Assembly (NCBI GenBank): GCA_029782355.1
Contig: JAKOUY010000031.1
Coordinates: 62,001-126,000 of the forward strand
DNA length: 64,000 nucleotides
DNA from: Actinomycetes bacterium
Lineage (GTDB): Bacteria; Actinomycetota; Acidimicrobiia; Acidimicrobiales; Ilumatobacteraceae
Direction: 5' to 3'
Part shown: in pieces, positions 43,493 through 48,311 of the stretch
Layout: every line of letters starts with the position of its first letter
Numbering within the stretch: the stretch's first letter is position 1
Notes under the pieces: generated by a model
Database searches by the model: none
Told to the model about the DNA's origin: nothing
What the model saw: only the letters and a program-made list of their open reading frames with translations
Translations under genes and position numbers: made by a program

Positions 43493-45235
43493 TCAGTCGA
43501 CCAGCCGGCACCGGCGGGCGACGTCGTCGACCAGCCGGCAGCGCTCGTGCTCGGACATCGTCTCGATCCGCCTGGCCCACTCGTCGACGGCGAACCAGCA
43601 CAGGGTGGGGCACCCGGCCAAGTCGGAGACGTCCACCGCCAAGCGCAACTCGGGCGCATCGACCGACATGGCCCGCACGGCCGGCCACCACGCCGTGTCG
43701 TAGTGGGCGTAGAGCTTGGTCACCGAGCCCGCCCGCAGGTGGTCGATGGCGTCGACGACGTCGCCGGGCAGTCCTGGCTCGAAGGTGATCCGGCCGGACC
43801 GCAACACGCCGATCGGCACGGTGACGACCACCGCGTCCACCTCGACCGGCTCGGCACCACCGTCGACCCGCCAGCCCGTCGATGTGCGGGCCAGCCCGCC
43901 GACCCGGTGGGCGAGGCGGATGTCGAGGCTGCCGGCCAGTTCGTCGAGCGTGTCGTCCAGTCCGGCGATGATCAGCCGGTTGGGGCCGGGAAGCATGAAC
44001 GGTTCATGACCGCCGCTCGCTGGGAAGTGGTCGAGCTCCCCGGCGTACAGGCTCTGGACCTCGGTGCGCAGCCAGGTCCGCACGCAGCGGCGGACCGTGT
44101 CGGCAACGGCGGGGAGCGCACCGATCAGCCGGTCGATCTCCGGACCGATCGGCAGGTCGGCGGGAAGCGACTCCAGCTCGGCCTCAACGTTGCGGCGCGC
44201 CACCCGAGCCGCGTCCAGATCGACCTCGGCGACCCGGCCGATCCCGTCGAGGAACGTCAGGTCACGGCTCCACTCGTCGGCGACCGAGGTCACCCGCTCC
44301 ACGAGCGGATGGCCGACGTCACCGTGCAGCCACATCCCGCCGAGCGGCAAGGACACCCCGGTCGACCGCTCGACCCGAGCTCGGCCACCGGGTCGCCTCC
44401 CGGCCTCGAGGACGACGACGTCCGCGCCCGCAGCTACCAGCGTGTTGGCCGCAACCAGTCCGGCGAGACCAGCACCGACCACCGCCACCCGCCCGTGCCC
44501 GGCGTCCGCCACCTGCCTGGCGGCCCGCTCGCCGCTGAACCACGCGCCGTGCAGCGTGCCCGGGTACTCGGCGCTGGTCGCCTCCCCGGCGAACCACAGG
44601 CCGGGGAGGATCGGCTCGGCCAGCCGGCGACGGTGCTGCGGCCGTCCACCGATCGCCAGATACGAGTACGCCCCGGCGATGTCCGGATCGGTCGACCACC
44701 GCGAGCACACCGTCCGGCGGGCCGCGACGTGTGCCGTCGAGCGGGTCATCACGGTGGCCCGGTGGCCGTGCGTCTCGACGGTCTGCAGGGCGTGCCAGCC
44801 GCGGGCCGCGTAGTAGGCCTCCTGACCGGCAGTGAACAGGTAGACGGCGGGGTGCCCGCCCTGCCGGGCAGCATCGACAGCCACGCCGGTCAGGGCCGAC
44901 CCGAGACCGCCCCCGCGTGCCCCGGGGACGACGTACAGGCTGGCCAGCCACGGCCCGAGATGGCCGAACCCGGCGAGGTCGTCGGTGGCCAGCAACGACA
45001 CCGAGCCGACGAGCGAGTCGACGTCGTCGGCCGGGCCGTCGAAGGCCACCCAGGTCTGATCGTCGCCCTGCCCGGTGGCCATGGCCACGAACTCGTCGTG
45101 GGCGACGCCGAGGTCCCACACCGCCGGATCGTAGAGATGTCCCCACTCGGCGACGTGCCAGTGGGCCAGGGTGTCAGCCAGCTGGGTCAACCCGGCCAGC
45201 GGGCGGATCCGCCACGCCTCAGCCGGGGGGTTCAC
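43493..45235 (-). CDS. GNAT acetyltransferase fused to a circularly permuted flavin amine oxidase
   Basis: 580 aa. Residues 1-150 are a GNAT domain (YVVPGARGGGLGSAL acetyl-CoA loop, AYYAARGWHAL). Residues about 165-245 carry what is normally the C-terminal end of a flavin amine oxidase (RWSTDPDIAGAYSYLAIGG, LWFAGEATS, TLHGAWFSGERAA). Only after this comes the normal N-terminal FAD site (VAVVGAGLAGLVAANTL, VLEAGRRPGGRARV) and the rest of the oxidase, ending just before the point where the C-terminal segment would begin. So the oxidase is circularly permuted, with nothing missing that I can see. GTG start overlaps the valS stop (GTGA). Substrate unknown; a polyamine or aryl amine is possible. 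Confidence 0.82.
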   Translation of the reverse strand: MNPPAEAWRIRPLAGLTQLADTLAHWHVAEWGHLYDPAVWDLGVAHDEFVAMATGQGDDQTWVAFDGPADDVDSLVGSVSLLATDDLAGFGHLGPWLASLYVVPGARGGGLGSALTGVAVDAARQGGHPAVYLFTAGQEAYYAARGWHALQTVETHGHRATVMTRSTAHVAARRTVCSRWSTDPDIAGAYSYLAIGGRPQHRRRLAEPILPGLWFAGEATSAEYPGTLHGAWFSGERAARQVADAGHGRVAVVGAGLAGLVAANTLVAAGADVVVLEAGRRPGGRARVERSTGVSLPLGGMWLHGDVGHPLVERVTSVADEWSRDLTFLDGIGRVAEVDLDAARVARRNVEAELESLPADLPIGPEIDRLIGALPAVADTVRRCVRTWLRTEVQSLYAGELDHFPASGGHEPFMLPGPNRLIIAGLDDTLDELAGSLDIRLAHRVGGLARTSTGWRVDGGAEPVEVDAVVVTVPIGVLRSGRITFEPGLPGDVVDAIDHLRAGSVTKLYAHYDTAWWPAVRAMSVDAPELRLAVDVSDLAGCPTLCWFAVDEWARRIETMSEHERCRLVDDVARRCRLVD

Positions 45236-47796
45236 GGCGAGGCATGGTCCGCGGACGCCAGGCTGATGGCGGTGTGCAGCTCGGCGCCATCGGCGGTGTC
45301 GTAGTCGACCACGGCCAGTGAACCCGCTTCGCGCAGGTCGGCCTCCACGCTGCGCACCGCGCCGACGATCCGCTCGGACCCGCCCACCAGCAGGCGCTCG
45401 ACGGCAGCCCGCTGGCTGAGCTTGGCCTCGGTCTTGGTCCGCCGGATGCGCGCCAGCACCTCGGTCACGACGGGCAGCATGGACACGTCGCCGTCGGTCG
45501 TCGATGGCTCCGGCCACGGTACGGCATGGATCGAGCCCTCGTGCCACCACCCCCAGACCTCGTCGGTGACGAACGGCATGATCGGGGCCAGCAGGCGCAG
45601 CGTGGCCGACAGCGCCGTGCGCAGGGCCAGTTGGGCGGACCCGGCCGGCTCGGCTCCCTGGGTGCCATAGGCCCGCCCCTTGACCAGTTCGACGTAGTCG
45701 TCGCAGAACCACCAGAAGAACTGCTCGGTGCGCTCCAACGCCCGGGCGTAGTCGTAGTCGTCGAACGCCCTGGTGGCATCGGCGATGACGTCGTCGAGGC
45801 GGGTCAGCATGGCCCGGTCGATGGCTGCCGTCACCGTCGTGCCGGTCGGTGGCTCGCCGAAGGCGAGGACGAAGCGGCTGGCGTTGAGGATCTTGGTGGC
45901 CAGCTTGCGGCCGATCTTCATCTGCCCCTCGTCGAAGGCGGTGTCCACTCCGGGGCGCCCGCTGGCGGCCCAGTAGCGCACGGCGTCGGTGCCGTACTGC
46001 TCGAGCAACCCGATGGGCGTGATGGTGTTGCCCTTCGACTTGGACATCTTCTTGCGGTCCGGGTCGAGGATCCACCCGGACAGGGCGGCGTTGCGCCACG
46101 GCACGGCATGGTGCTCGTGGTGGGCGCGGACCATGGTGGAGAACAGCCAGGTGCGGATGATGTCGTGGCCCTGCGGACGGACGTCCATGGGGAACACCCG
46201 GCGGAACAGGTCGGGGTCGTCCTCCCACGCCGCGGCGATCTGCGGGGTCAGCGAGGACGTCGCCCAGGTGTCCATGACGTCGGGGTCGCCGACGAACCCG
46301 CCGGGCACCCCACGCTGCTCGGCGGTGAAGCCGGGCGGGCAGTCGGTGGACGGATCGACGGGCAGGGCCGATTCGTCGGGCACCAGCACCTGGTCATGAT
46401 CGGGGTTGCCGTCGGCGTCGAGCCGGTACCAGACCGGGATGGGGACACCGAAGAAGCGCTGCCGGCTGATCAGCCAGTCACCGTTCAACCCGCCGACCCA
46501 GTTGTCGTAGCGGTGCTGCATGTACGGCGGGTGCCAGGCGACCTCGGTGCCGCGCTGGATCAGAGCGTCACGCAAGGCGCCGTCGCGCCCGCCGTTGCGG
46601 ATGTACCACTGTCGGGTGGCCACGATCTCCAGCGGCCGGGTGCCGCGCTCGTAGAACTTCACCGGGTGGGTGATCGGGCGTGGCTCGCCGAGCAGTTCAC
46701 CGGTGTCGCGCAGCTGGCGGACGACCGTGGCCTGGGCGGCCTTCGGGTACAGCCCGGCGATGTCGGCGTAGCGGGCCTTGCCCGGGTCAGTGGTGATCCA
46801 TTCCGGGGTGGCCGTGGCGAAGCGCCCGTCGAAGCCGATCAGCGCTCGCGACGGCAGGTTCAGTTCGCGCCACCAGGTGACGTCGGTGATGTCGCCGAAG
46901 GTGCAGATCATGGCGATGCCGGTGCCCTTGTCCGGCTCGGCGAGGCGATGAGCGACGATGGGCACCTCGACGCCGTACAGCGGCGTGGTCACCGTGTGGC
47001 CGAACAGTGGTCGGAAGCGGGAGTCGTCGGGGTGGGCGACCAGGGCCACGCAACTTGCGACCAGCTCCGGGCGGGTGGTGTCGATGCGGATGTCGCCCTG
47101 TCCGTCGGTGCGGTGGAAGGCCAGCTGGTGGTACGCGCCGGCGATGTCGCGGTCCTCCATCTCGGCCTGGGCCACCGCGGTGCGCTCGTCGATGTCGTAC
47201 AGCGTGGGGGCGTCCTGCTGGTAGGCCTCGCCACGGGCCAGGTTGCGCAGGAAGGCCCGCTGGCTGACGCGCCGGGCCCGCTCGCCGATCGTGGTGTACA
47301 GCAGGTCCCAGTCGACGCTCAGTCCGAGGGTGCGGAACAGGTGCTCGAAGGCCTGCTCGTCGAGGTGGGTGATCTCCCGGCACAGTTCGACGAAGTTCGG
47401 CCGGCTGACCGCCACGGCGCGGTGGTCCTTGGGCACGTCGCCATGGAATGGTGCGGTGAAGTCGGGGTCGTAGGGCAGCGACGGGTCGCAGCGCACCCCG
47501 GTGAAGTTCTGCACCCGGCGCTCGGTGGCCAGGCCGTTGTCGTCCCAGCCGATCGGGTAGAAGACGGCCTTGCCACGCATCCGCTGGAAGCGGGCCACCG
47601 TGTCGGTGTGGGTGTAGCTGAAGACGTGGCCGATGTGCAACGACCCGCTGACCGTGGGCGGCGGCGTGTCCACGGCGAACACCTGCTCACGGGTGGCGGT
47701 GCGGTCGAAGCGAAAGACCCCGTGGTCGGCCCACCGTTGCTGGATGCGGGCTTCGATGCCGTCGAGCGACGGCTTCTCCGGGATCTCGGTGGCCAT
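45232..47796 (-). CDS. valS: Valyl-tRNA synthetase
   Basis: 854 aa. Class I synthetase charging tRNA-Val. HIGH motif in SGSLHIGHVFSY, KMSKSKGN, editing domain in the middle (RIDTTRPELVASCVALV) and WATSSLTPQIAAAW typical of ValRS. The C-terminal coiled arm is short. Divergent from the B12-binding subunit gene, with 107 bases between. Translationally coupled to the GNAT-oxidase gene. Confidence 0.96.
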   Translation of the reverse strand: MATEIPEKPSLDGIEARIQQRWADHGVFRFDRTATREQVFAVDTPPPTVSGSLHIGHVFSYTHTDTVARFQRMRGKAVFYPIGWDDNGLATERRVQNFTGVRCDPSLPYDPDFTAPFHGDVPKDHRAVAVSRPNFVELCREITHLDEQAFEHLFRTLGLSVDWDLLYTTIGERARRVSQRAFLRNLARGEAYQQDAPTLYDIDERTAVAQAEMEDRDIAGAYHQLAFHRTDGQGDIRIDTTRPELVASCVALVAHPDDSRFRPLFGHTVTTPLYGVEVPIVAHRLAEPDKGTGIAMICTFGDITDVTWWRELNLPSRALIGFDGRFATATPEWITTDPGKARYADIAGLYPKAAQATVVRQLRDTGELLGEPRPITHPVKFYERGTRPLEIVATRQWYIRNGGRDGALRDALIQRGTEVAWHPPYMQHRYDNWVGGLNGDWLISRQRFFGVPIPVWYRLDADGNPDHDQVLVPDESALPVDPSTDCPPGFTAEQRGVPGGFVGDPDVMDTWATSSLTPQIAAAWEDDPDLFRRVFPMDVRPQGHDIIRTWLFSTMVRAHHEHHAVPWRNAALSGWILDPDRKKMSKSKGNTITPIGLLEQYGTDAVRYWAASGRPGVDTAFDEGQMKIGRKLATKILNASRFVLAFGEPPTGTTVTAAIDRAMLTRLDDVIADATRAFDDYDYARALERTEQFFWWFCDDYVELVKGRAYGTQGAEPAGSAQLALRTALSATLRLLAPIMPFVTDEVWGWWHEGSIHAVPWPEPSTTDGDVSMLPVVTEVLARIRRTKTEAKLSQRAAVERLLVGGSERIVGAVRSVEADLREAGSLAVVDYDTADGAELHTAISLASADHASP

Positions 47797-47903: not shown

Positions 47904-48311
47904 GTGAAGCGCCACTATCGCGTCGTCGTGGCCAAGCCGGGCCTGGACGGGCACGACCGCGGCGCCAAGACCATCACCCGAGCGCTCCGTGACGCCGGGT
48001 TCGAGGTCATCTACACGGGCCTGCACCAGACCCCGGAGCAGATCGCCGAGACCGCCCTGCAGGAGGACGTCGACGCCGTCGGGCTGTCCCTGCTGAGCGG
48101 GGCTCACCTGACCCTGTTCCCCCGCGTGATCGAGGAGCTCAAGTCCCGCGAGCTCGACGACGTGCTGGTGTTCTGCGGCGGGGTGATCCCCGACGCCGAC
48201 GCCCGGGCCCTCCGCGCCCAGGGCGTGGCGGAGATCTTCGGCCCGGGCAGCAGCCTGAAGGGCATCAGCGCCTGGCTGGAGGCCCAACTGGATTCCCGAG
48301 AGGAGCAGTAA
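47904..48311 (+). CDS. B12-binding subunit of a methylmalonyl-CoA-type mutase
   Basis: 135 aa, a stand-alone cobalamin-binding domain. The DxHxxG motif is in [21 protein letters not shown] and CGGVIPD complete the B12 pocket. In the family it joins a separate catalytic TIM-barrel subunit to isomerise methylmalonyl-CoA to succinyl-CoA (or isobutyryl-CoA to butyryl-CoA). That large subunit is not in the window. sucC starts at the base after its stop, so product and next enzyme are coupled. Confidence 0.92.

Follow-up and report, generated by a model that had tools for sequence, protein, structure and literature searches.

A flavin amine oxidase with a probable natural circular permutation and a GNAT acetyltransferase domain at its new N-terminus

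The GNAT-oxidase gene and its parts

The window (the whole stretch of 64,000 nucleotides that was analysed) holds a single open reading frame (ORF) of 580 codons plus a stop at 45235..43493 on the minus strand, the strand also of its parts and of the valS gene given below. It starts with a GTG codon at 45235, stops at 43493-43495 and has no internal stops. Read over its full extent (43493..45235), the gene encodes a GNAT acetyltransferase part, followed by the C-terminal block (C block) and then the N-terminal block (N block) of a flavin amine oxidase. Immediately upstream is the valyl-tRNA synthetase gene valS (45232..47796; PF00133 and PF08264). The valS stop and the start of the GNAT-oxidase gene share 4 bases (GTGA), an overlap with which translational coupling is possible. 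The gene downstream is a fatty acid hydroxylase (PF04116). The available flanks of 11 relatives contain no match at E 1e-8 to any of four genes of the window, namely the hydroxylase gene, valS, the regulator and the gene at 47904.

The GNAT part covers residues 1-168 (44732..45235), with EWGHLY at 30-35, and scores 29.3 bits with PF00583 (cut-off 20.7), which bears out the fusion described in an earlier note on this DNA. Residues 107-112 (44900-44917) read RGGGLG, which we take to be the acetyl-CoA motif of the pattern R/QxxGxG/A. Among the GNAT-fused proteins described below, Arg107 of this motif is kept in 9/9 aligned rows and Gly110 in 8/9. Solved structures match the GNAT part weakly, the best being puromycin acetyltransferase (E 0.0082), and because these matches are weak we do not propose a GNAT substrate from them.

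The oxidase was identified by a whole-protein match to the Pfam model PF01593 (169.2 bits, cut-off 19.8) that falls in two stretches. The longer stretch places residues 257-575 on profile positions 1-363. Scanned alone, the N block (residues 248-580) matches up to profile position 363, and the C block (residues 169-247) matches positions 373-442 of 443 (E 4e-17). The model is covered nearly whole, once, with its last sixth relocated to the front. The C block, as delimited by PF01593 and by the C-terminal ends of PDB sequences, comprises residues 173-242 (44510..44719) and contains RRTVCSRW, GAYSYL (188-193), FAGEAT (215-220) and TLHGAWFSG (227-235). A short join at about residues 243-248 (44492..44509), placed by comparison with a model of canonical sequences, connects the old C-terminus to the old N-terminus. 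The N block follows at residues 249-575 (43511..44491), with VVGAGLAGL (252-260), WLHG (302-305) and a conserved lysine, Lys507 (43715-43717), presumed to be catalytic and to lie near the flavin N5. Both FAD motifs of the family, GAGxAGL...E...GGR and FAGEAT...HGA, are present. In the canonical order the N-terminal FAD block comes first and the C block last; here residues 173-242 precede residues 249-575. The earlier note had read the blocks in this swapped order and had the chain ending where a C block would begin, and the profile coordinates agree with it on both points.

Comparison with proteins of known structure gave the same division. Residues 168-249 enclose the stretch that aligns with the C-terminal ends of LSD1, LSD2 and spermine oxidase, and residues 247-519 the stretch that aligns with N-terminal parts. 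When the PDB was searched with a profile of the junction, none of the 60 matches listed, out of 110, had its best stretch across the junction. No NCBIfam model scored above its own cut-off among the matches listed. Elsewhere in the host genome, PF01593 matches one gene over the whole model in canonical order (contig C7, 1-441) and several others partially.

Permuted relatives and their common cut site

The earlier note had suggested a search for the permuted order in other genomes, and that search was productive: the order is found with and without GNAT, with the same junction in 45 distinct proteins. Matches across the swapped junction turned up in further genomes of a set of 61, made up of the host and 60 relatives; GNAT is present in three of these (L004, L005, L006) and absent from others (L008-L012). 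A scan of genome contigs gave 17 relatives, of which nine are a GNAT joined to a permuted oxidase, seven are stand-alone GNATs (L072-L078) and the last is a fragment (L079). Six of the nine fused genes are full length and open (L063, L064, L065, L066, L068, L071), two run off the end of a contig (L069, L070) and the ninth has an in-frame TAG (L067). Under second labels, L004, L005 and L006 reappear here as L065, L069 and L070. The fusion is retained across divergent members (39-54% identity). Of the 17 relatives, three (L064, L069, L070) carry the label Ilumatobacteraceae. The labels of L066 ("Mycobacterium sp.") and L073 ("Klebsiella pneumoniae"), both metagenome assemblies, look doubtful; L066 clusters with L064, labelled Ilumatobacteraceae, and L065.

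To class block order we used one profile for the N block and another for the C block, in a count that leaves aside the loci from the host PF01593 scan and from the 200-genome family search described below. This gave 59 permuted ORFs (45 distinct) and 42 canonical ORFs (39 distinct). Most of the distinct permuted proteins, 36/45, have no GNAT, a point missed by the earlier note. Nine of the 45 N-termini are a GNAT, and a simple rule assigns to 31 others a twin-Arg/Lys plus hydrophobic leader, or about 30 given that the leader of L133 precedes its likely start codon. Five show neither GNAT nor leader: L012, L093, L131, L039, which is damaged, and L097, which lies on the edge of a contig. The leaders mostly end in Cys and look like Tat lipoprotein signals; no leader was seen in the GNAT-fused form. 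The genome of L064 (G783) encodes three permuted oxidases, the GNAT form and two more on contigs C28 and C117.

Permuted oxidases occur in two phyla, Actinomycetota and Pseudomonadota. Among the matches listed, those spanning the junction come from 11/396 Actinomycetota genomes (E up to 1e-18), 22/395 genomes of the host class (E up to 1e-24; the match in G590 starts at a contig edge) and 4/349 Pseudomonadota genomes (E up to 1e-28). In Verrucomicrobiota, a search made without a positive control found them in 0/145 genomes at E 1e-28. Within the host family, a whole-protein search at E up to 1e-30 gave a spanning match in 27/200 genomes, one of them with an in-frame stop, and a GNAT fusion in 6/200, two of the six cut by contig ends. 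Canonical oxidases served as an internal control, and in the same searches appear as two separate matches with the C block downstream. Eight plasmid records were matched, and the 2/8 that were classed (L117, L118) have the canonical order.

The position of the cut was read against a model of 39 canonical sequences (423 positions). The N block ends at model position 334-344 in 41/41 permuted proteins readable to that end; the other four of the 45 do not reach it because of a contig end (L005, L006) or stops (L039, L086). The C block starts at position 338-349 in 31/45, up to 43 positions earlier in 13, where the alignment continues into other N-terminal sequence, and at 364 in one at a contig edge. 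The join between the old ends measures -2 to 7 residues in 45/45. Such fixed geometry is predicted by circular permutation and not by random fusion. The junction profile was itself built from this cut, so that permutants with another cut would escape it.

The residues expected to form the FAD site and the active site are largely kept. Lys507 is present in 7/7 GNAT-fused rows that reach it, and H304, Y190, E218, T227 and H229 are present in 9/9. G254, E277, R285, A216 and E218 are kept in 7/7 GNAT-fused and 33/33 other permuted rows, and W180 in 33/33 non-GNAT permuted rows of the tree set. In these non-GNAT rows the lysine is found in 28/33 (missing in L011 and L040-L043), and H304 and Y190 vary more. 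For one close pair of fused genes (L068/L071), dN/dS values are 0.097/0.375 overall, 0.047/0.250 for GNAT, 0.056/0.361 for the C block and 0.132/0.442 for the N block. In this pair all three parts appear to be under purifying selection, with a lower rate of change in the GNAT than in the oxidase.

A decayed or chimeric remnant, or a misassembly, in which two pieces of canonical oxidases were joined into a non-functional product, would account for the abnormal order, and a few relatives do carry stops or damage (L067, L039, L086, L152). Against it stand the open 580-codon frame, the 45 distinct proteins with one junction and one cut, dN below dS in the pair above and the conserved active-site residues, and we regard it as highly improbable. 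The earlier note had itself raised a fusion remnant marked by a second C block or a frameshift. Neither turned up: all 59 permuted ORFs classed (45 distinct) have a single C block, and the frame of the window gene is unbroken. For the window gene, then, a remnant or frameshift was ruled out by the open frame, the single C block and dN below dS in L068/L071, and an assembly chimera by the same swapped arrangement in other genomes. The profile E-values and the conservation in other genomes likewise exclude a chance origin of the arrangement.

The damaged copies differ in kind. In L067 the TAG (around 6682) sits exactly between the C and N blocks, as in a broken gene, a split gene or a sequence error. 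L086 has a stop in the N block, past which the same frame continues. L039 has a stop or stops in the N block and has lost its middle, and L152 has one TGA in frame.

Origin of the permuted order

Circular permutation is generally modelled as a tandem duplication followed by loss of the outer parts, and this is the likely route here. The old N- and C-termini would lie near each other in the FAD domain, where a short join could close them, and the old chain would have been opened at the loop just before the RW..DP segment. At the new N-terminus some members carry a GNAT, others a Tat/lipoprotein-like leader and a few neither.

In trees of re-ordered sequences, the seven full-length GNAT-fused proteins group with L093 (100/98, 100/100, 100/100). 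The remaining permuted proteins fall among canonical ones, and the backbone of the trees is poorly resolved. L093 (L111 3620-4915, minus strand) is permuted, has neither GNAT nor leader and groups firmly with the GNAT-fused proteins; it could represent either the state that preceded the fusion or one that has lost the GNAT.

The shared cut favours a single origin of the permutation. The alternative, that permutation at the same cut arose more than once or reverted, draws on the failure of the re-ordered trees to yield one permuted clade and on a test that rejected such a clade at p 0.0147 (33 vs 19 rows). Larger sets do not reject it (p 0.0899 with 35 vs 33 rows, p 0.098 with 40 vs 39), the backbone is weakly resolved and a single cut site is used throughout. 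We consider repeated origin or reversion unlikely, if still a serious candidate, and favour a single origin tentatively.

Predicted structure, activity and substrate

AlphaFold2 modelled the whole chain, from nine sequences, at pLDDT 81.9 (five models 63.6-81.9) and pTM 0.70, and the oxidase part at pLDDT 84.3 (79.5-84.3) and pTM 0.85. Low-confidence residues lie near GAYSY, at 181-191 in the whole chain and 193-195 in the oxidase part. The values for the oxidase part do not contradict the expectation in the earlier note that a permuted chain can fold, but the surroundings of GAYSY were poorly modelled. We infer an intact FAD site, from residue conservation, and docking of the C block onto the N block.

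The closest relatives of known structure are flavin oxidases of the LSD and polyamine oxidase kinds. LSD2 is the top match of the oxidase profile (E 2.2e-57), followed by LSD1 and spermine oxidase. Structural aligners keep chain order, so that the Z scores given here describe the N block and not the docked C block: 25.9 to LSD1 (329 residues, 2.9 A), 23.0 to murine N1-acetylpolyamine oxidase (5lae) and 23.8 to maize polyamine oxidase (model 80-412 on chain 5-379 of 459 residues). The amine oxidase domains of LSD1 and LSD2 (2z5u, 4gu0), whose substrate is histone, have the canonical block order and no GNAT in these matches, whereas the window gene is permuted and has one. In single-sequence comparison with the PDB, spermine oxidase (7oxl) ranks first (E 1.2e-25) and matches in both blocks, and the WxHG histidine of the GNAT-oxidase aligns with it. 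Spermine oxidase and N1-acetylpolyamine oxidase are also canonical in order and are not known to be joined to an acetyltransferase. Among the best canonical matches of the junction profile are bacterial amine oxidases of a Tat/lipoprotein-like type (e.g., L044 and L101). Their leaders are similar to those of the permuted group, but their N block comes first and their C block last, the opposite order.

Taken from sequence and model, the GNAT-oxidase is probably a member of the LSD/spermine oxidase/polyamine oxidase kind of flavin enzyme that has undergone circular permutation in nature and bears a GNAT at the new N-terminus. In the literature we searched, preprints and most subscription journals aside, neither a circularly permuted flavin amine oxidase nor a GNAT-oxidase fusion turned up; the passages of PMC2876114 and PMC1282579 that matched deal with other proteins. 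We thus found no earlier description there of a natural permutant of the MAO/LSD/polyamine oxidase fold with one cut site in two phyla, heavily studied as this fold is. The permutation counts for more than the GNAT fusion. As an experiment done by nature, it can tell which connections of the chain this fold requires and at what points modules may be added, and it illustrates that block order can stay hidden behind domain matches.

The permuted oxidase is very probably active. The two blocks would rebuild the usual enzyme around FAD, and an amine and O2 would give H2O2, an aldehyde and a shorter amine. For some members, if not all, the fold might instead have been kept for another reaction or for binding alone, as the missing lysine in L040-L043 and L011 could suggest; the lysine and the FAD residues are present in all GNAT-fused rows that reach them, and such a change of use seems improbable. 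L040, L041, L042 and L043 are leader-type proteins that belong to a single family (f85); besides missing the putative catalytic lysine they differ at the His and Tyr positions, and perhaps they catalyse another reaction.

The GNAT form poses a testable question, namely whether a single chain first acetylates an amine and afterwards oxidises it. Most plausibly, if the two parts cooperate, the GNAT would acetylate a shared substrate before oxidation or the amine product afterwards. That both act on one substrate is a tentative reading, appreciably short of an even chance. Nearly an even chance, by our estimate, goes to an active oxidase whose GNAT acts on something unrelated. The stand-alone GNATs in other bacteria (L072-L078), the 36/45 permuted oxidases that do without one and the lack of any neighbour-gene link we could find all fit separate roles; the persistence of the fusion across its divergent members and the slower evolution of the GNAT in the one tested pair speak against them.

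For the oxidase substrate the nearest solved relatives suggest a polyamine, though as an identification this is doubtful. Searched for speE and speA, the host genome (G000) gave no match to either. Across the seven GNAT-oxidase genomes, speE was above its cut-off in 0/7, two coming near (224.6-224.7 of 249.55 bits), and speA in 0/7. As far as these two genes go, the result may argue against the host making its own spermidine. We hold it similarly unlikely that, in a permuted group reaching across phyla, the opened loop is a docking point for new N-terminal modules and the GNAT form acetylates and then oxidises one amine. If true, the GNAT form would match, within one protein, the eukaryotic polyamine pathway of SSAT and acetylpolyamine oxidase, in which acetylation precedes oxidation.

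The seven stand-alone GNATs are 36-56% identical to the fused GNAT part and differ from it in having no oxidase attached. The most similar (L072, 6001-6492; 56% identity) ends where the fusion would start, and its genome also encodes a permuted oxidase as a separate gene.
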